Shown here: positions 8,237 through 51,790 of the stretch, piece by piece | How positions within the stretch are numbered: the stretch's first letter is position 1 | How the letters are laid out: each line of letters starts with the position of its first letter | Origin: an uncultured Hyphomicrobiales bacterium | GTDB taxonomy: Bacteria; Pseudomonadota; Alphaproteobacteria; Rhizobiales; Xanthobacteraceae | Assembly: GCA_903839845.1 (NCBI GenBank) | Contig: CAIMEA010000147.1 | Coordinates: 1 to 54,475 of the forward strand | Length of the DNA: 54,475 nucleotides | Direction: 5' to 3' | The notes under the pieces: generated by a model | Seen by the model: only the letters and a program-made list of their open reading frames with translations | The model's database searches: none | What the model was told of the DNA's origin: nothing | Program-made: the position numbers and the translations under genes

Positions 8237-9481
8237 ATGGCGAAACGCAGCGTCAAAAAGGCCAAACCTGGACAGGCCAAGCTTAAAAAACGCACGGCTG
8301 ACAAGCGCGCGCCGGTCCGTCGGCCGGCAAGCCGCGCCGATGTGCGCGGCGTCGAAGCTGCGCTCGCCGGGATCGCGCATGACATTCGCACGCCATTGAC
8401 CGGCATCGTTGCTTTGGCCGAATTGCTGGCCGCCTCCAATCTGGGTCAACGCGAACGCGATTGGGCGAGCGCGGTCAAAAGCGGCGCCGAGCATCTGGCC
8501 GCCTTGAGTTCGCTGATCGTCGACGCGGTCAAGGCCGATGCGACCGGGCTGGTGCTGCGCAACGAGCCGTTCTCGCCGCGCGCCTTCGCCACCGCGGTCG
8601 GTCAGGCGCTGGCCGCGCGCGCCGGCAACAAGGGCGTCGAGGCCCGCATTGCGATCGCGCCCGATTTGCCGGCGATGGTATCGGGCGATGTGGTGCGCCT
8701 GCGCGCGGCGCTGGAAAATCTCGCCGACAACGCGGTGAAATTCACCAACCAGGGCGCCGTCACCTTCACCGCGAAATGCGAGCCGGCGCCGCGTGGCCGC
8801 CTGCGCCTGGTCTTCAGCATCGCCGACAGCGGCATCGGCATCAGCGTCGCTGAACTCAAGCGGCTGTTCAAGCCGTTCGCGCAGGCGAGCGAACAGATCG
8901 CCCGGCGCTATGGCGGCGCCGGTCTCGGCCTGACATTCGTCAAGCGCATCGCCAAGGTCATGGGCGGCGATCTCACCGTGGTCAGCAAGCCGGGCGAGGG
9001 GTCGACATTCCGCCTCACCGTGCTGGTTGCGCCGGCCGAGGACCGCCGCGCCGGCGATGGACACCGCGCCGCGCCGCCGCGCGCGCTGTCGCTCTTGTGC
9101 GCCGAGGACAATCCGTACGGACGCGTGGTGATGAATACGATTCTGACGCAACTCGGTCATAAAGTGGATTTCGTTGACAGCGGCGAGGCGGTGGTGAAGG
9201 CGGCCGCGCGCGGCGGCTATGACGCGGTGTTGATGGATGTGACTTTGTCGGGGCTCGATGGGCTGGAGGCGACGCGGCGCATCCGCGCGCTGCCGGGCAG
9301 GGCCGGGCAGATCATGATCGCCGGCATTTCCGGGCGTGGCGAGGCCGCGCATCAGACAGCCGCGCTCTCGGCGGGCATGAATTTCTATTTCGTAAAACCG
9401 ATCAGCCCCGGCAAACTGGCGCAGGCGCTGGCGACACTTCCGTCGCCCCGCTTGCGGGGAGAGGGTGGTGAGCCGCGGTAG
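8237..9481 (+). CDS. Soluble hybrid histidine kinase (HisKA-HATPase-receiver)
   Basis: The 414-residue protein has no transmembrane segment and no recognisable sensor domain. A basic N-terminus (Lys/Arg-rich, residues 1-35) leads into a HisKA helix with phospho-accepting His48 in 'IAHDIRTPLTG'. The ATPase domain shows the N box 'NLADNAVKF', 'DSGIGIS' and 'GGAGLGLTFV'. A receiver domain starts near residue 290, with Asp334 in 'AVLMDVTLSG' as the phosphorylation site. The last residues ('LPSPRLRGEGGEPR') and the stop codon come from a family B repeat, so the native end was probably replaced. Partners and signal are unknown; no phosphotransfer protein is adjacent. Confidence 0.9.
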   Translation: MAKRSVKKAKPGQAKLKKRTADKRAPVRRPASRADVRGVEAALAGIAHDIRTPLTGIVALAELLAASNLGQRERDWASAVKSGAEHLAALSSLIVDAVKADATGLVLRNEPFSPRAFATAVGQALAARAGNKGVEARIAIAPDLPAMVSGDVVRLRAALENLADNAVKFTNQGAVTFTAKCEPAPRGRLRLVFSIADSGIGISVAELKRLFKPFAQASEQIARRYGGAGLGLTFVKRIAKVMGGDLTVVSKPGEGSTFRLTVLVAPAEDRRAGDGHRAAPPRALSLLCAEDNPYGRVVMNTILTQLGHKVDFVDSGEAVVKAAARGGYDAVLMDVTLSGLDGLEATRRIRALPGRAGQIMIAGISGRGEAAHQTAALSAGMNFYFVKPISPGKLAQALATLPSPRLRGEGGEPR

Positions 9482-9596
9482 CGGCGAACCGGGTGAGGGG
9501 AGTTCGCAACGGTATGATCAACGATAGCGCCCCTCACCCGACATTCTCGATCCACTCGAATGTCGACCTCTCTCCGTAAACGGGGAGAGGTGAAAG
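9442..9596. repeat. Palindromic repeat, family B, copy 1
   Basis: The outer arms are GCCCCGCTTGCGGGGAGAGG and, at the far end, CCTCTCTCCG..CGGGGAGAGG. The inner arms are GGGTGAGGGG and CCCCTCACCC. The copy begins inside the hybrid kinase gene and ends next to the ecm stop codon, so it spans both convergent gene ends. Related copies are at 31055, 46050, 47514 and 49413. Confidence 0.85.
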
Positions 9597-30837: not shown

Positions 30838-33516
30838 TTGTCATTGTCCGATCGCATCGAAGCGCCGCCGCTCCTGCCCGATGTTTTCTCGCAATGGTTC
30901 GCCAGGCGTGGCTGGACGCCGCGCACGCATCAGCTGGAATTGCTGGCCAAGGCGAAAGCCGGGCGCTCGGCGCTGCTGATCGCGCCGACCGGCGGCGGCA
31001 AGACGTTGGCGGGGTTTTTGCCGACATTGGTCGAACTCAGCGAGAAGGCAACTCTTCACCTCTCGCCGCGTGCGGGGAGAGGTCGACCGAGCGAAGCTCG
31101 GTCGGATGAGGGGGCGTCGAAGGTTGAGAATGACGGCGAGGCCCCCTCATCCGGCGCAATCTCGCCACGCTCGATTGCGCCACCCTCTCCCCGCGCGCGG
31201 GGAGAAGGAAGAAGCAGCGGCATTCGCCGCGAGGGCGGCCTGCACACGCTTTATATATCACCATTGAAGGCGCTCGCCGTCGACATCGCGCGCAATCTGG
31301 AAATGCCGGTGCGCGAGATGAATTTGCCGATCCGGCTGGAGACGCGCACCGGCGACACGCCGGCCTCGAAGCGGCAGCGTCAGCGCCGCGATCCGCCCGA
31401 CATTTTGCTCACCACGCCGGAGCAACTGGCGCTGCTGCTGGCTTCCGCCGATGCGCCGTACATGTTCGGCTCGCTGCGCCGCGTCGTGCTCGACGAATTG
31501 CATTCGCTGGTCACGTCCAAACGCGGCGATCTGCTGTCGCTTGGCTTGGCGCGGCTGTTCAAGCTGGCGCCGGCGATGACGACGGTCGGCCTGTCCGCCA
31601 CCGTCGCCGAGCCGGACGAGTTATGCCGCTTTCTGGCGCCGCAGCCGCTCGATGGCGAAGCGAAGGCCGATCTGGTCATCGCGCATGCCGGCGCGCAGCC
31701 GATGGTGACCATGCTCGACACCAAAGAACGATTGCCTTGGGCCGGGCATTCGGCGCGGCATGCGCTGCACGAAATCTACGCGCTCATCAAGCAGCACAAG
31801 ACCACGTTGATTTTCGTCAACACCCGCAGCCAGGCCGAATTCACTTTCCAGTCGCTGTGGGGCATCAACGACGATAACCTCGCCATCGCGCTGCATCACG
31901 GTTCGCTCGATGTCGCGCAGCGCCGCAAGGTCGAGGACGCGATGAGCGCCGGCAAATTGCGCGCTGTTGTGTGTACCTCGTCGCTCGACCTCGGCGTCGA
32001 TTGGGGCGACGTCGATCTGGTCGTCAACATCGGCGCGCCGAAAGGTTCGTCGCGGTTGATGCAACGCGTCGGCCGTTCCAACCACCGCTACGACGAACCG
32101 TCGAAAGCGGTGCTGGTGCCGTCCAATCGCTTCGAGGTGCTGGAATGCCGCGCCGCCATCGACGCGGTGGCCGCCAACGCACAGGACACGCCGCCTTTGC
32201 GGCTAGGGGCGCTCGACGTGTTGTGCCAGCATATTCTCGGCCGCGCCGTCGGCGAGCCGTTTCTGTCTGATGAGTTGTTCGCCGAAGTGCGCTCCGCCGC
32301 GCCTTACGCGACGCTATTGCGTACCGATTTCGACGACGCCGTCGATTTCGTCGCCACCGGCGGCTACGCGCTGAAGGCCTATGAGCGCTTTGCCAAAATT
32401 CGTCAGACGAAGGATGGCAAATGGCGCGTCGCCCATCCACGCGTGGCTCAGCGCTATCGCATGAACATCGGCACCATCGTCGAAGCCGATATGCTTAAAG
32501 TGAGGCTCATGCGGTCACGCCGGGGCGGCGCTGCGATGATCCCGCGCGGCGGCCGCGTGCTCGGCCAGGTCGAGGAGTATTTCATCGAAGGCCTGACGCA
32601 GGGCGACACCTTCGTCTTCGCCGGCGAGATCTTGAAATATGAAGCTTTGGTCGAGAACGAAGTCTATGTCTCGCGTTCGACGGCGACCGATCCGAAAGTG
32701 CCGGCCTATGAGGGCGGCAAGTTCCCGCTGTCGACTTATCTGGCGGCGCGCGTGCGCGGCATTCTCGCCGATCCGAAAGCCTGGCGCGCGCTGCCGGATC
32801 AGGTGCGCGAATGGCTGGAGATCCAGGAGTGGCGTTCGCTGCTGCCGCCGGCCGGCGACCTCTTGGTCGAAACCTTCCCGCGCGGCAACAAGAATTATCT
32901 GGTCTGCTATCCATTCGAGGGCCGCCTCGCGCATCAGACGCTGGGCATGCTGCTGACGCGGCGGCTTGAGCGCGCCGGCATGAAGCCGCTCGGCTTCGTC
33001 GCCAATGAATACGCGCTGGCGGTGTGGGGCCTCAGCGACCTCGGCGCTTGCATGGCGCGCGGCGAACTCTCGCTCGGCGCGCTGTTCGCAGAGGACATGC
33101 TCGGCGACGATCTGGAAGAGTGGCTGGCCGAATCGGCTTTGATGAAGCGAACGTTTCGCAGTTGCGCGATCATCGCCGGCCTGATCGAGCGCCGGTTCCC
33201 GGGCGAGGAGAAATCCCGCCGTCAGGTCACTATGTCGACCGATCTCGTTTACGACGTGCTGCGCAAGCACCAGCCGGACCACATTCTATTGCGCGCGGCG
33301 CGCGCCGACGCCGCCACCGGCCTCCTCGACATCAAGCGGCTGGCTGAAATGCTCTCGCGCATCCAGGGCCGAATCGTCCATAAATCGCTCGATCGCGTGT
33401 CGCCGCTGGCGGTTCCGGTTATGCTGGAGATCGGCCGCGAGACGGTCTATGGCGAGGCGGCGGATACGTTGCTGGCGGAAGCCGCCGGCGAGTTAATTAA
33501 GGAAGCGATGCATTGA
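30838..33516 (+). CDS. Ligase-associated Lhr-type DEXH helicase with in-frame repeat insertion
   Basis: The 892-residue ATP-dependent 3'-5' DNA helicase is of the Lhr-Core type. Motif I is 'APTGGGKTLAGF' (about residues 49-60), the DEXH motif 'VVLDELHSLV' lies near 218, 'GLSATVAEPDEL' follows, and domain 2 shows 'VCTSSLDLGVDWGDVDLV' and 'QRVGRSNHRYDEP'. A winged-helix and Lhr-specific domain follow. Residues about 72-134 are unlike the family: they are Arg/Ser/Pro/Gly-rich and translated from a family B repeat that lies between motifs I and Ia without breaking the frame. Translation starts at a TTG just after the methyltransferase stop, suggesting coupling. Confidence 0.92.
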   Translation: MSLSDRIEAPPLLPDVFSQWFARRGWTPRTHQLELLAKAKAGRSALLIAPTGGGKTLAGFLPTLVELSEKATLHLSPRAGRGRPSEARSDEGASKVENDGEAPSSGAISPRSIAPPSPRARGEGRSSGIRREGGLHTLYISPLKALAVDIARNLEMPVREMNLPIRLETRTGDTPASKRQRQRRDPPDILLTTPEQLALLLASADAPYMFGSLRRVVLDELHSLVTSKRGDLLSLGLARLFKLAPAMTTVGLSATVAEPDELCRFLAPQPLDGEAKADLVIAHAGAQPMVTMLDTKERLPWAGHSARHALHEIYALIKQHKTTLIFVNTRSQAEFTFQSLWGINDDNLAIALHHGSLDVAQRRKVEDAMSAGKLRAVVCTSSLDLGVDWGDVDLVVNIGAPKGSSRLMQRVGRSNHRYDEPSKAVLVPSNRFEVLECRAAIDAVAANAQDTPPLRLGALDVLCQHILGRAVGEPFLSDELFAEVRSAAPYATLLRTDFDDAVDFVATGGYALKAYERFAKIRQTKDGKWRVAHPRVAQRYRMNIGTIVEADMLKVRLMRSRRGGAAMIPRGGRVLGQVEEYFIEGLTQGDTFVFAGEILKYEALVENEVYVSRSTATDPKVPAYEGGKFPLSTYLAARVRGILADPKAWRALPDQVREWLEIQEWRSLLPPAGDLLVETFPRGNKNYLVCYPFEGRLAHQTLGMLLTRRLERAGMKPLGFVANEYALAVWGLSDLGACMARGELSLGALFAEDMLGDDLEEWLAESALMKRTFRSCAIIAGLIERRFPGEEKSRRQVTMSTDLVYDVLRKHQPDHILLRAARADAATGLLDIKRLAEMLSRIQGRIVHKSLDRVSPLAVPVMLEIGRETVYGEAADTLLAEAAGELIKEAMH
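31055..31206. repeat. Palindromic repeat, family B, copy 2 (inside the helicase gene)
   Basis: The outer arms CCTCTCGCCGCG..GGGGAGAGG and CCCTCTCCCCGCG..GGGGAG match the other B copies. The middle holds GATGAGGGGGCG and its partner GCCCCCTCATC, plus a local hairpin GACCGAGCGAAGCTCGGTC. It is translated in frame as an Arg/Pro/Ser-rich segment that includes 'LSPRAGRGR'. Confidence 0.85.
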
Positions 33517-33527
33517 CGGCACTCCCC

Positions 33528-33590
33528 GCTCATTCCCGCGAAAGCGGAAATCCAGAAGAGACTGGGTCCCCGCCTTCGCGGGGACGAGCG
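33528..33590. repeat. Palindromic repeat, family A, copy 3
   Basis: CATTCCCGCGAAAGCGGAAA and GTCCCCGCCTTCGCGGGGAC form the two hairpins, with the ATCCAG arm between them. It lies between the helicase stop codon and the likely start of the phosphoesterase gene, within one operon. Confidence 0.85.
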
Positions 33591-43555: not shown

Positions 43556-43620
43556 GGTTGTTTGTCCCGGCCTGGCGAGACCGGTGGTAGCACATTCACT
43601 CGGTCCGTGACCACACACTC

Positions 43621-43736
43621 CGCTCATTCCCGCGTAGGCGGGAATCCAGTTCTTGCTTTTCTCAGTAAGGCTGGGTCCCCACCATAGGCGTTCGCAGAAC
43701 GCCGTCCTTTGGACGGCTACGCGCGGGGACGAGCGG
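43621..43736. repeat. Palindromic repeat, family A, copy 4, with nested palindromes
   Basis: The left arm CATTCCCGCGTAGGCGGGAA is normal for family A. The right hairpin, usually GTCCCCGCCTTCGCGGGGAC, is interrupted: between GTCCCC and GGGGAC lie about 45 bp holding GGCGTTC-GCA-GAACGCC and CCGTCC-TTT-GGACGG. It lies between an MFS gene start and the end of the luciferase-like gene. Confidence 0.82.
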
Positions 43737-46022: not shown

Positions 46023-46349
46023 CGAACTTCGCCGCGAATGCAGGTGGGCTCCCTCTCCCAACCCAACTCGGGTTTACCCGAGTTGGGCATCTAAAATGCC
46101 AAAGTCGGATATATCCGACTTTGGATTGGGGAGGGGGTTGGGGTGAGGGGGCCTAAGTCTCTCGATAGACAGTTACCCCTCACCCGCCCGCCTTCGCGAT
46201 GCTTCGGCGGGCGACCTCTCCCATTGGGAGAGGTGAAAGGAAGCGTATTCGCCCTCTCGCCCCCGCCGCCCACTGGCCCTATGTTGGGGCCTCACGATTC
46301 GCCAAAAGGCGCACCGACAAGACGCCCGAGCTTAAAGAACGCCCCGCCG
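46023..46349. other. 327-bp intergenic region largely filled by a repeat
   Basis: The region from 46050 to 46234 is family B copy 3. The remaining 115 bp before the acyl-CoA dehydrogenase gene hold no supported gene. An open frame reaching back to 46143 is only repeat sequence and leader. Confidence 0.7.
46050..46234. repeat. Palindromic repeat, family B, copy 3, with two nested palindromes
   Basis: The outer arms CCCTCTCCCA and CCTCTCCCATTGGGAGAGG and the inner GGGTGAGGGG/CCCCTCACCC match family B. Inside are CCCAACTCGGGT-TT-ACCCGAGTTGGG (46062-46087) and CCAAAGTCGGATA with its exact complement TATCCGACTTTGG (46099-46124). These are absent from other B copies. Confidence 0.85.
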
Positions 46350-47507
46350 ATGGAAGCGCTCAATCTGCCGCGTCCCCCATGGATGACCGAAGACCTCGTC
46401 ATGCTCGAGGAGCAGTCGCGCCGCTATGTCGCGGCCGAATTCACCCCGCATGTCGATCGCTGGCACGAAGCCGGTATTTACGACCGCGATGTGTGGACCA
46501 AGGCCGGCGAGGCCGGTCTGCTGTGCGCCTCGATGCCGGAGGAATATGGCGGCTCCGGCGGCAGCTTCGCGCATGAGGCGGTGATCAACCGCGAGTTTTC
46601 GCTCGGCGGCTTCGATTCATTTGGCGCGCCGCTGCATTCCGGCATCGTTGCGCCCTACATTTTACATTACGGCACCGAGGAACAGAAAAAGCGCTGGCTG
46701 CCCAAGCTCGCCACCGGCGAACTGGTCGGCGCCATCGCCATGACCGAGCCGGGCACCGGCTCCGATTTGCAGGGCGTGCGCACCAAGGCGGAGAAATCCG
46801 GCAACGGTTACGTGCTCAACGGCGCCAAGACATTCATCACCAACGGCCAGCACGCCAACCTGATCATCGTCGTCGCCAAGACCGACCCGAAGGCCGGCTC
46901 CAAGGGCGTCTCCTTGATGGTGGTCGAAACTGACGACGCGCCCGGCTTCCGCCGCGGCCGCAAACTGAAAAAGCTCGGCCTCGATAGTGCCGACACGTCG
47001 GAATTATTTTTCGACGACGTCAAGCTGCCGGCCGAGGCGCTGCTTGGCCCTGAGGAGGGCCAGGGCTTCTATCAGTTGATGAAGGAATTGCCGCAGGAGC
47101 GGCTGATCGTCGCGGTGCACGCGGTCGCCATGATGGAGCGGGCGCTGGCGCTGACGATTGACTACGTCAAACAGCGCCAGGCCTTCGGCAAGAAGATCAT
47201 CGAATTCCAGAACACCCAGTTCGAGCTGGCGGAATGCAAGACCGAGGTCACCATCGCCAAGGTGTTCCTCGATTATTGCATCGGCCAGCACGTCGAGGGC
47301 AAGCTCGATACCGTTACCGCCTCGATGGCCAAATACAAGCTCACCGACACCCAAGCGAAGGTCATCGACCGCTGCCTGCAGCTGTTTGGCGGCTACGGTT
47401 TTATGGACGAATATCCGATCTCGCGCCTCTACCGCGACGCCCGCGTCTTGCGTATATATGCGGGAACGAACGAGATCATGAAGCTTTTGATTGCGCGGAG
47501 TTTGTAG
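46350..47507 (+). CDS. Long-chain type acyl-CoA dehydrogenase
   Basis: The 385-residue FAD enzyme is of normal length for its family. 'MPEEYGGSGGSF', 'AMTEPGTGSDLQGVRTKA', 'VKQRQAFGKKIIEFQNTQF' and the end 'YAGTNEIMKLLIARSL' match. The terminal 'YAGTNEI' lacks the glutamate used in medium-chain enzymes; instead the glutamate in 'ELPQERLIVAVHA' fits the catalytic position of long-chain and isovaleryl types. The ATG at 46350 is the first before the conserved 'PRPPWMTEDL'. It starts a run of beta-oxidation genes with the thiolase and FadB/J-like enzyme. Confidence 0.9.
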   Translation: MEALNLPRPPWMTEDLVMLEEQSRRYVAAEFTPHVDRWHEAGIYDRDVWTKAGEAGLLCASMPEEYGGSGGSFAHEAVINREFSLGGFDSFGAPLHSGIVAPYILHYGTEEQKKRWLPKLATGELVGAIAMTEPGTGSDLQGVRTKAEKSGNGYVLNGAKTFITNGQHANLIIVVAKTDPKAGSKGVSLMVVETDDAPGFRRGRKLKKLGLDSADTSELFFDDVKLPAEALLGPEEGQGFYQLMKELPQERLIVAVHAVAMMERALALTIDYVKQRQAFGKKIIEFQNTQFELAECKTEVTIAKVFLDYCIGQHVEGKLDTVTASMAKYKLTDTQAKVIDRCLQLFGGYGFMDEYPISRLYRDARVLRIYAGTNEIMKLLIARSL

Positions 47508-47513
47508 CTTTCT

Positions 47514-47654
47514 TCCCTCTCCCATAGGGAGAGGGTGCCTGAGCGCAGCGAGGGCGGGTGAGGGGTTATGGCCCTTCGATAGTCCGTAACCCCTCACCCG
47601 GTTCGTTGCTCGCTTCACTCGCAACTCACCACCCTCTCCCTATGGGAGAGGGAA
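47514..47654. repeat. Palindromic repeat, family B, copy 4
   Basis: CCCTCTCCCATAGGGAGAGGG and CCCTCTCCCTATGGGAGAGGG (each split as arms around ATAG/TATG) bracket GGTGAGGGGTTA and TAACCCCTCACC. The right arm supplies a purine-rich GGGAGAGGGAAGGAG directly before the thiolase start, so it probably contributes to the ribosome-binding site. Confidence 0.85.
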
Positions 47655-47666
47655 GGAGAAGTAAAA

Positions 47667-49412: not shown

Positions 49413-49522
49413 TCCCTCTCCCCGTCGGGGAGAGGGTTGGGGTGAGGGGGTCTAGTACTCTCGATGCGCTGTAACCCCTCACCCGGCGCACTTCGTGCGC
49501 CGACCTCTCCCCACGGGAGAGG
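49413..49522. repeat. Palindromic repeat, family B, copy 5
   Basis: CCCTCTCCCCGTCGGGGAGAGGG at the left (arms around GT) and CCTCTCCCCACGGGAGAGG at the right bracket GGTGAGGGGG and CCCCTCACCC, with a local GCGCACTTCGTGCGC hairpin. It fills most of the gap between the cupin gene and the FadB/J-like gene. Confidence 0.85.
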
Positions 49523-49546
49523 TAATGAAAGAACGAGGACACGACC

Positions 49547-51790
49547 ATGGCCAATTTCAAACTCGACGTCGACGCCGACGGCATCGCGCTGATCACCTGG
49601 GACATGCCCGACCGCTCGATGAACGTCATCACCCTCGACGCCATCGAGGAGCTTTCCGGCCTCGTCGACAAGGTGACGAACGACGCCGCGATCAAGGGTG
49701 CGGTCATCACCTCCGGCAAGGAAGCCTTCTGCGGCGGCGCCGACCTGACCATGCTGGAGCGCATGGGCGCGCTCTATGCCGGCATGATGAAGAACGAAGG
49801 CGAGCACGCCGCGGCGAAATTCATCTACGAGGAAAGCGCCAAGCTGTCGCAGCTTTATCGCCGCATCGAAAAGGGCGGCAAGGAGACGACGTCCAAGGAT
49901 AAAGGCCACACGCCCGGCAAGCCGTGGGTCTGCGCGCTCAACGGCACGGCGATGGGCGGCGGTTTCGAACTGGCGCTCGCCTGTCATCATCGCGTCGCCG
50001 CCGACAATCCGAAGACGCGGCTCGGCCTGCCGGAAATCAAGATCGGCCTGTTCCCCGGCGCCGGCGGCACGCAACGCGTCGCGCGCATGATGCAGCCGGC
50101 CGACGCGCTGCAATTCCTGCTCAAGGGCGACCAACTGAAAACCGACCGCGCCAAGGCGATGAAGCTGATCGACAATGTCGTGCCGCAGGCCGACCTGATC
50201 AAGACGGCGAAGGACTGGATCAAGGCCGGCGGCAAGGCGGAGGCGCCGTGGGACGTGAAGGGCTTCAAGCTGCCCGGCGGTCCGGTCTATTCCAAGGCCG
50301 GCATGATGACCTTCCCGCCGGCGAACGCGATCTATCGCCGCGAGACCTACGACAATTATCCCGCCGCCCGCGCCATTCTGCAGGTCGTCTATGAAGGCCT
50401 GCAATTGCCGATGGATGTGGCGCTGCGCGTCGAGTCGCGCTGGTTCGCCAAGATCCTGCGCTCGCCGGAAGCGGCGTCGATGATCCGCACGTTGTTCGTC
50501 AACATGCAGGACTTGAACAAAGGCGCGCGCCGCCCGGCCAACGAGCCGGCGGTGTCGATCAAGAAAGTCGGCGTCGTCGGCGCCGGCTTCATGGGCGCCG
50601 GCATCGCCCAGGTGAGCGCCGCAGCCGGCTTGCAGGTGGTGCTGGTCGACCGCGATCAGGAAACCGCCGACAAGGGCAAGGCCGCCTTGCACAAGGCGAT
50701 GAGCGACCGCGTCATGAAAGGCCGCATGAAAGGCGCCGACCGCGATTCGCTGTTGGAAAAGATCACGCCGTCGGCCGATTACGCCGCCTTGAAGGATTGC
50801 GACCTGATCATCGAAGCGGTGTTCGAGGATCGCAAGGTGAAGTCCGACGTGATTGCGAAAATCCAGGCGGTGATCGGCGACAAGGCGATCTTTGCCTCCA
50901 ACACCTCGACATTGCCGATCTCCTCGCTCGCGTCCGAGTTCAAGGAGCCGGCGCGCTTCATCGGCATCCACTTCTTCTCGCCGGTCGACCGCATGATGCT
51001 GGTCGAGTTGATCCTCGGCAAGGAGACCGGCGACCGCGCGCTCGCCGCCGCGCTCGATTATGTCCGCGCCATCCGCAAGACTCCTATTGTTGTGAATGAC
51101 TCGCGCGGCTTCTACACCTCGCGCGTCGTCGGCACTTACATCCGCGAGGGCCACCTGATGCTGGCCGAAGGCGTGCCGGCGGCGATGATCGAGAATGTCG
51201 GCCGCATGGCCGGCATGCCGGTCGGGCCCTTGTCGCTCAACGACGAAGTCGCGGTCGATCTCGCCTGGAAAATCCTCAAGGCGACCGAAGCCGATCTCGG
51301 CGCCGCCGCCATCGATCCGCGCCAGAAATCGTTGCTGGAAGACATGGTCGAGAAGCGCCAGCGCTTCGGCCGCAAGAACGGCAAGGGCTTTTACGATTAT
51401 CCGGCCGCCGGTCCGAAAAAACTCTGGCCCGGTCTGGCCGATTTGCAGACGGTGAAGCTCGATCCCGACAAAATCGATGTGCAGGAATTGAAGGACCGGC
51501 TTTTGGCGATGCAGGCCTTGGAAACCGCGCGCTGCTTCGAGGAAAAGGTGCTCACCGACGTGCGCGAGGCCGATGTCGGTTCGATCCTCGGTTTCGGTTT
51601 TGCGCCGTTCTCCGGCGGCACGCTGTCCTATATCGACATGATGGGAACGAAGAAGTTCGTCGCGCTGTGCAAGAAGCTGGAGGCCAAGTACGGCGGCCGC
51701 TTCGCGCCGAACAAGCTTCTCATCGACATGGCCGAGCACGACCAGAGCTTCTATTCGCGCTTCGCGCCGGAGAAGAAGAAAGCAGCGTAA
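49547..51790 (+). CDS. Bifunctional enoyl-CoA hydratase/3-hydroxyacyl-CoA dehydrogenase (FadB/FadJ type)
   Basis: The 747-residue beta-oxidation enzyme has an N-terminal crotonase domain (about 1-220) with the oxyanion segment 'GGADLTMLERMG' and the glutamates in 'GTAMGGGFELALACHH' and 'RLGLPEIKIGLFPGAGGTQR'. The dehydrogenase part starts with the NAD fold 'VGVVGAGFMGAGIAQVSAAAG' near residue 343 and has the catalytic His in 'FIGIHFFSPVDRM'. Two C-terminal helical domains complete the FadB/J length. It hydrates trans-enoyl-CoA and oxidises the product. It teams with the upstream thiolase. Confidence 0.93.
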   Translation: MANFKLDVDADGIALITWDMPDRSMNVITLDAIEELSGLVDKVTNDAAIKGAVITSGKEAFCGGADLTMLERMGALYAGMMKNEGEHAAAKFIYEESAKLSQLYRRIEKGGKETTSKDKGHTPGKPWVCALNGTAMGGGFELALACHHRVAADNPKTRLGLPEIKIGLFPGAGGTQRVARMMQPADALQFLLKGDQLKTDRAKAMKLIDNVVPQADLIKTAKDWIKAGGKAEAPWDVKGFKLPGGPVYSKAGMMTFPPANAIYRRETYDNYPAARAILQVVYEGLQLPMDVALRVESRWFAKILRSPEAASMIRTLFVNMQDLNKGARRPANEPAVSIKKVGVVGAGFMGAGIAQVSAAAGLQVVLVDRDQETADKGKAALHKAMSDRVMKGRMKGADRDSLLEKITPSADYAALKDCDLIIEAVFEDRKVKSDVIAKIQAVIGDKAIFASNTSTLPISSLASEFKEPARFIGIHFFSPVDRMMLVELILGKETGDRALAAALDYVRAIRKTPIVVNDSRGFYTSRVVGTYIREGHLMLAEGVPAAMIENVGRMAGMPVGPLSLNDEVAVDLAWKILKATEADLGAAAIDPRQKSLLEDMVEKRQRFGRKNGKGFYDYPAAGPKKLWPGLADLQTVKLDPDKIDVQELKDRLLAMQALETARCFEEKVLTDVREADVGSILGFGFAPFSGGTLSYIDMMGTKKFVALCKKLEAKYGGRFAPNKLLIDMAEHDQSFYSRFAPEKKKAA

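Follow-up and report, generated by a model that had tools for sequence, protein, structure and literature searches.

The window analysed here, a contig of 54,475 nucleotides from an uncultured Hyphomicrobiales bacterium, encodes on its plus strand an Lhr-type ligase-associated DEXH helicase (TIGR04121; open reading frame (ORF) 30838–33516, 892 residues, TTG start), and this gene contains an in-frame palindromic element of 159 nt, corresponding to 53 codons, at 31054–31212 of the same strand. We consider it very probable that a non-autonomous mobile palindrome inserted in frame into a permissive loop of the helicase and is translated as a disordered loop of an enzyme that keeps working. An initial annotation of this DNA had reported a repeat at 31055–31206, read in frame without a stop codon; the repeat and the open frame, which runs through the element and across the entire gene, were both recovered, whereas its limits, delineated by alignment with other inserts, turned out to be slightly wider. 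The helicase scored 1122 bits against the TIGR04121 model (curated cut-off 850) and comprises DEAD, Helicase_C, WH_Lhr and DEAD_assoc domains, with M. smegmatis Lhr bound to single-stranded DNA and AMP-PNP (5v9x) as the nearest solved structure. The element is located between motifs I and Ia.

A covariance model, R1, built from 13 helicase inserts and thus partly from this very copy, matched the element at 31053–31212 with 87 bits. The surrounding RNA (31030–31240) folds at −141.7 kcal/mol compared to a shuffled mean of −93.4 (z −9.2), and the same stretch folded as a DNA strand yielded a z of −8.8. Sequence and fold together indicate two palindromic arms of the CTCTCCCCGC..GCGGGGAGAG type plus inner hairpins. 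The end arms pair in the predicted folds, providing the terminal inverted repeats of a miniature inverted-repeat transposable element (MITE). As the ends read CTTCACC and GGAAGA and CGTC occurs only internally, the element lacks the tag that characterizes GTAG/CGTC repetitive extragenic palindromes (REPs). In Rfam, the single match of the window at gathering level was a tRNA and none fell on the element at that level; sub-threshold matches on the element were mainly microRNA-type hairpins. The encoded peptide is basic and rich in Arg, Ser, Pro and Gly.

We compared the linker between motifs I and Ia across 120 genomes, the window's own included, all of which gave some helicase match, many of them partial or to other helicases. 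The linker was readable in 116 non-redundant loci and, within the window's genus, in 29 of 43 genomes. Seven of these 29 carry a full element, one a fragment (L028) and 21 none; in a further genome (G015) the contig ends inside the linker, the visible peptide being of element type. Among the relatives, the four that rank nearest in score or identity (G031, G024, G014 and G012), with 91–94% identity across the aligned portion, lack any insert here, repeat or otherwise, and their short linker ends in K-LVSTG/LISTG..IRRxGG. Relative to them, the window lost about 36 nt (about 12 codons) of linker and gained the element, resulting in 72 linker residues versus a mean of 28.1 (27–32) in element-free relatives. 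The net gain is therefore about 44 residues, and 53 are encoded by the element, fewer than the roughly 60 first proposed. Likewise, the block following motif I had been expected within 15–25 residues, but LHTLYISPLKAL comes 33–38 residues after GKT in the element-free members of the genus. These members mostly retain a KLVSTG..IRR-type segment, which the insert bearers of the genus lack in whole or in part. The insert, thought possibly unique to this strain or clade, marks a site that was filled repeatedly by different elements across the family, and inserts at the same site in relatives rule out a lone event of this strain. Two loci differ from the common arrangement: in L064 (G018) the helicase is split across two frames (266 and 802 residues), perhaps by a frameshift or an assembly error, and L061 (G062) exhibits the longest linker, with 128 residues from motif I to Ia that look like a composite of several elements.

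To describe the state of the protein, we used substitution rates and a structural model. Downstream of the linker, the ratio of nonsynonymous to synonymous substitution rates (dN/dS) was 0.081 between the window (L009) and L063, 0.081 between the window and L013, and 0.038 between L011 and L022. Because these values are low, the gene is under purifying selection on the compared pairs, over a span of time that may in part predate the insertion. Together with the open assembled frame, the value of about 0.08 against a sister gene does not fit a broken gene. A broken or chimeric gene with an accidentally open frame is highly improbable: the window does come from a draft assembly of 240 contigs, in which spurious ORFs of great length abound, but both flanks align to a single orthologue, the TIGR04121 score lies far above its cut-off, dN/dS is low, and independent genomes, including the two-contig assembly G019, show the same arrangement. 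An AlphaFold2 model based on 62 sequences reached a mean predicted local distance difference test score (pLDDT) of 82.2 and a predicted template modelling score of 0.82. Residues 76–130 have a pLDDT below 50 and lie between a helix (55–74) and a strand (137–140), so that the element loop is predicted to be disordered in an otherwise well-folded enzyme; modelling the insert for disorder was a check proposed in the initial annotation.

The repeated use of this loop was assessed on a tree of 69 helicases calculated with the linker excluded; an element was recognised in 20 of them and a fragment in 5, and the remaining 44 had neither. These labels were assigned by hand from linker peptides and folds, and among the 20 element rows L026, L034 and L099 fold less strikingly (z of −0.9, −2.9 and −1.5, respectively). 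Presence and absence require 16 changes on the tree, at least 13 of them forced by starred branches, a count that does not tell gain from loss; in this tree L111 and L060 are joined by long branches (program warning) and the outgroup does not form one side of a branch. Element-bearing rows did not cluster on the tree beyond what label shuffling produced (92 of 500 shuffles gave as low a number of changes), and the sisters L011, with an element, and L022, with none, are just 0.042 changes per site apart. The inserts occur in two orientations with two frames in each, giving four classes by eye, namely forward LSPRAGRGR, forward PSPxxGEG, reverse PRLRGRV and reverse PSPLxGEG. Since orientation and frame do not drift, the loop has probably been hit by at least four independent insertions. 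Furthermore, 11 of the 20 helicase inserts match a genomic copy, out of a set of 138 copies from four genomes, better than any other helicase insert, most clearly L014 (152 versus 84) and L106 (173 versus 89 for the best helicase insert).

Several observations weigh against insertion of a mobile element as described above. The other 9 of the 20 inserts match another helicase insert best, which would fit shared insertions within a class. The clearest such case is formed by the inserts of the window and of L010, which are mutual best matches (188, with genomic copies reaching 112 and 122 at best; 80.5% identity). Visual inspection of four pairs of related sites revealed no target-site duplication; in most of them bases of the former linker had been replaced, and in the window the element took the place of the older linker segment instead of being simply added. 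Its openness follows composition, with 2.14 of six frames open versus 1.98 in shuffles. Finally, translation of the loop in the cell is something we infer from the open frame. The window and L010 inserts may go back to a single event or to a common source subfamily; recombination of the insert between the two lineages was considered and rejected, as flank identity is not raised. The closeness of these two inserts and of the nine best-matching ones, along with the tree neighbours L034, L035 and L036, all of the LSPxAGRGR or LAPLAGRGR type, would also suit a single old insertion in the family ancestor that was inherited vertically and lost many times, with the differing elements being decayed or gene-converted. 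We regard this history as unlikely, as simple decay does not alter orientation or frame and yet four classes are present, for 11 of the 20 inserts the closest match is a genomic copy and not another helicase insert, and the KLVSTG..IRR-type segment is mostly kept by the element-free relatives of the genus and missing in all or part from the insert bearers.

A domesticated insert, in which selection would act on an mRNA hairpin or a basic loop to adjust translation, the binding of DNA or contacts with proteins, could account for the strong hairpin in the coding mRNA, the basic and Pro-rich nature of the loop and the repeated use of the site. It appears still less probable, given that 21 of the 29 readable genus linkers have no element and one more has a fragment, no peptide is common to all classes, the modelled loop has no structure and the elements are hardly more open than composition predicts. 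Adaptation of the element for coding is not supported by the open-frame counts, and since open frames arise mostly from composition there is no sign that the element evolved for translation.

In the favoured scenario, insertion of a MITE/REP-like palindrome, the element would have entered the first RecA-like domain in the loop that connects helix α1, which follows motif I, to the strand bearing motif Ia. Being GC-rich, it would often be open, and translation, where length and phase fit, would yield a disordered loop rich in Arg, Ser, Pro and Gly. The α1–motif Ia loop of RecA-like folds is situated at the sheet edge, on the side facing away from the nucleotide site. The insertion would persist because the loop joins the sheet edge away from the ATP and DNA sites and the enzyme still works. 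The element is presumably mobile, the insert-bearing helicase probably retains its activity, and the element would mostly be a tolerated passenger, a selfish repeat in a permissive loop.

R1 detected 56 distinct places in the window's genome (G000) after merging strands, 5 of them inside the window and 55 besides the helicase; all such counts are lower bounds, with 150 of 2123 first-look candidates scored in this genome and the weakest counted match having an E near 0.01. Plain BLAST yielded 15 matches, the self-match and both strands included. The four other copies in the window had been described as intergenic, which holds for those at 47510–47656 (plus strand; R1 47.1 bits), between acyl-CoA dehydrogenase and thiolase genes, and at 49413–49528 (minus strand; 69.4 bits), upstream of a FadJ-type gene (49547–51790, plus strand). 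A minus-strand ORF of 989 residues over the latter copy has no Pfam match and runs antisense to the FadJ-type gene. For the remaining two the description needs qualification. The full-length copy at 9436–9596 (minus strand; R1 72.5 bits, 70% BLAST identity) ends before a methylmalonyl-CoA mutase gene and reaches 46 nt into the 3′ end of a hybrid histidine-kinase/response-regulator ORF (8237–9481, plus strand), beyond the last domain of that ORF, whose final codons and stop it provides (9436–9481). The copy at 46109–46239 (minus strand; 46.9 bits), between genes for a substrate-binding protein and an acyl-CoA dehydrogenase, overlaps the first codons of the longest ORF (46143–47507), in which the family match begins only at residue 82.

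To extend the census to other genes, we ran R1 on three more genomes of the genus (G023, G033 and G019), scoring 150 first-look candidates each of 3523, 3090 and 2506, respectively. Places examined with sequence numbered 56 of 56 in G000, 64 of 76 in G023, 56 of 56 in G033 and 40 of 40 in G019, in total 216. ORFs with at least 25 codons on each side span 112 of these places (157 ORFs), and 28 lie clearly inside genes backed by Pfam, NCBIfam or an orthologue. The search for family copies within coding regions proposed at the outset thereby gave further in-frame cases in the window's genome, where internal places fall in the helicase, dnaE2 (three), mutS (weak, 26 bits) and uvrD/pcrA. The corresponding genes are the helicase, dnaE2 (two places), uvrD/pcrA, ligase, hrpB, hydantoinase A, prmA and a tilS-like PP-loop gene in G023; the helicase, polA, uvrC, uvrD/pcrA (two), uvrB and PDH E2 in G033, whose helicase place was missed by the coding-score filter and taken from the linker comparison; and the helicase, uvrB (three, two of which overlap), uvrD/pcrA and rlmN in G019. 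Coding sequence makes up most of such genomes, yet no more than 28 of the 216 places fall clearly within genes; where the element survives inside genes, it does so mainly in loops and linkers.

DNA repair and replication genes hold 22 of the 28 internal places, 18 of 24 without the helicase, whose matches are found by construction because R1 was made from helicase inserts, and 8 of 14 gene families. If such genes make up an assumed 5% of coding sequence, the chance of these proportions is 7e-24, 4e-19 and 9e-8, respectively; places in one gene, or in the same gene of related genomes, are not independent, and the family count is the safest. Adding nine doubtful cases gives 23 of 37. These comprise ureF, three DUF559 ORFs, an HdeA ORF, truB, queG and a terminase, in each of which the domain is confined to the region downstream, together with the uvrB gene of G023, in which a run of N within the element hides the frame. 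Scanning the other 105 spanning ORFs without the coding-score filter placed their families downstream of the element and added none.

The dnaE2 gene of the window's genome (error-prone polymerase; L239:1224–5096, contig C206) contains three closely similar in-frame elements, two of which are 98% identical, and all three are absent from G031; the dnaE2 genes of relatives have at least four sites occupied by elements, which belong to several types. In G023, both the cluster ligase (L400:171–1958) and the helicase have an in-frame element of their own. The mutS gene of G000 (L212:1277–4066) probably contains a Pro-rich partial element just before Walker A, as tentatively indicated by the weak model score. 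In truB of G033 (L303:521–1831) an element apparently sits directly behind the initial codons, in keeping with reports on this gene from other bacteria. The uvrB inserts of G019 and G033 lie in terminal extensions, and no inserts were found within the model core of UvrB in 26 full-length rows. PolA match lengths vary among rows, the cause having been looked at only in G033. As judged from match spans, aconitase and SecA had no inserts in 30 and 29 full-length rows, respectively.

Confinement of in-gene copies to repair genes is ruled out by leuS, hydantoinase, prmA, PP-loop, rlmN, hrpB and PDH E2. LeuS is in general essential, and 5 of 33 full-length genus copies of its gene (L420–L424) encode element-type peptides at one site, just before PVAQRQVNYRLRDWG, a finding that also speaks for the favoured insertion scenario. 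The leuS insert of G023 is absent from the R1 list, so the census misses some elements; it covers four genomes, and leuS stands as an exception outside it to a repair-only pattern. A coupling of insertion and repair, by which palindromes would gather preferentially in DNA repair genes, is in our judgement a rather doubtful proposal. Elements might insert into repair genes when damage induces these and leaves them open and under transcription; alternatively, mildly weakened repair alleles might raise hairpin movement, with elements spreading by decorating the enzymes that would remove them.

The helicase itself belongs to a repair cluster. The ligase-associated endonuclease gene pdeM (TIGR04123; 33513–34262, plus strand; 225.6 bits, cut-off 150) adjoins it, and an ATP-dependent DNA ligase (TIGR04120; 27179–28825, minus strand; 820 bits) is encoded nearby on the other strand. 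A second, shorter repeat containing ATTCCCGCG, which has the look of a CGTC-type REP, occurs at 33514–33555 and 43608–43649, the former copy overlapping the helicase stop codon and the pdeM start. A search with one direct-repeat LexA-box pattern gave three matches in the window, none near the helicase, and 20 of 100 shuffles contained as many.

The closest parallel in behaviour is given by the Rickettsia palindromic elements (Ogata et al. 2000), for which the account drawn on here describes lengths of 105–146 bp, intergenic copies as well as copies in frame in conserved protein genes, and at least one tested host protein, Gmk, that keeps its activity (PMC2229807). The present element, at 159 bp, is likewise palindromic and found both between genes and in frame in conserved genes, and the likeness suggested by the initial annotation stands in the sense that it works in the same way. 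In contrast, the host is a probable Pseudolabrys relative and not an obligate intracellular bacterium, the likeness is one of behaviour, and here one loop of one protein was hit repeatedly in different orientations and frames. GTAG/CGTC REPs are units of 20–40 bp marked at one of their ends by a GTAG or CGTC tag; Di Nocera et al. 2013 reported such REPs within repair genes, among them two in recB whose positions nearly coincide in two species of Xanthomonas (PMC3733652). The element resembles them in being a palindromic repeat inside repair genes at a site shared across species; it differs in its length of about 110–165 bp, its two palindromic arms with inner hairpins and the absence of an end tag. 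Rhizobium-specific intergenic mosaic elements (RIMEs) also resemble the element as large palindromic repeats in Hyphomicrobiales genomes. They were described as intergenic (Osteras et al. 1995, cited in PMC2573895), whereas the present element also occurs in genes.

A search of open-licence papers turned up neither an intragenic case of this type of element nor an account of this helicase loop being occupied repeatedly. For other repeat families, REPs within repair genes had been described in 2013; the novelty lies in the element type and in a single loop having been filled again and again within a family of free-living soil bacteria. Core repair proteins of non-rickettsial Hyphomicrobiales are also shaped by in-frame insertion of palindromes, a phenomenon familiar above all from Rickettsia. 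The several separate fillings of one loop provide natural pairs of the same enzyme with and without an insert. Repair genes seem to be favoured here by an element type that differs from the one reported in 2013, which opens a so far unexplained association to testing.
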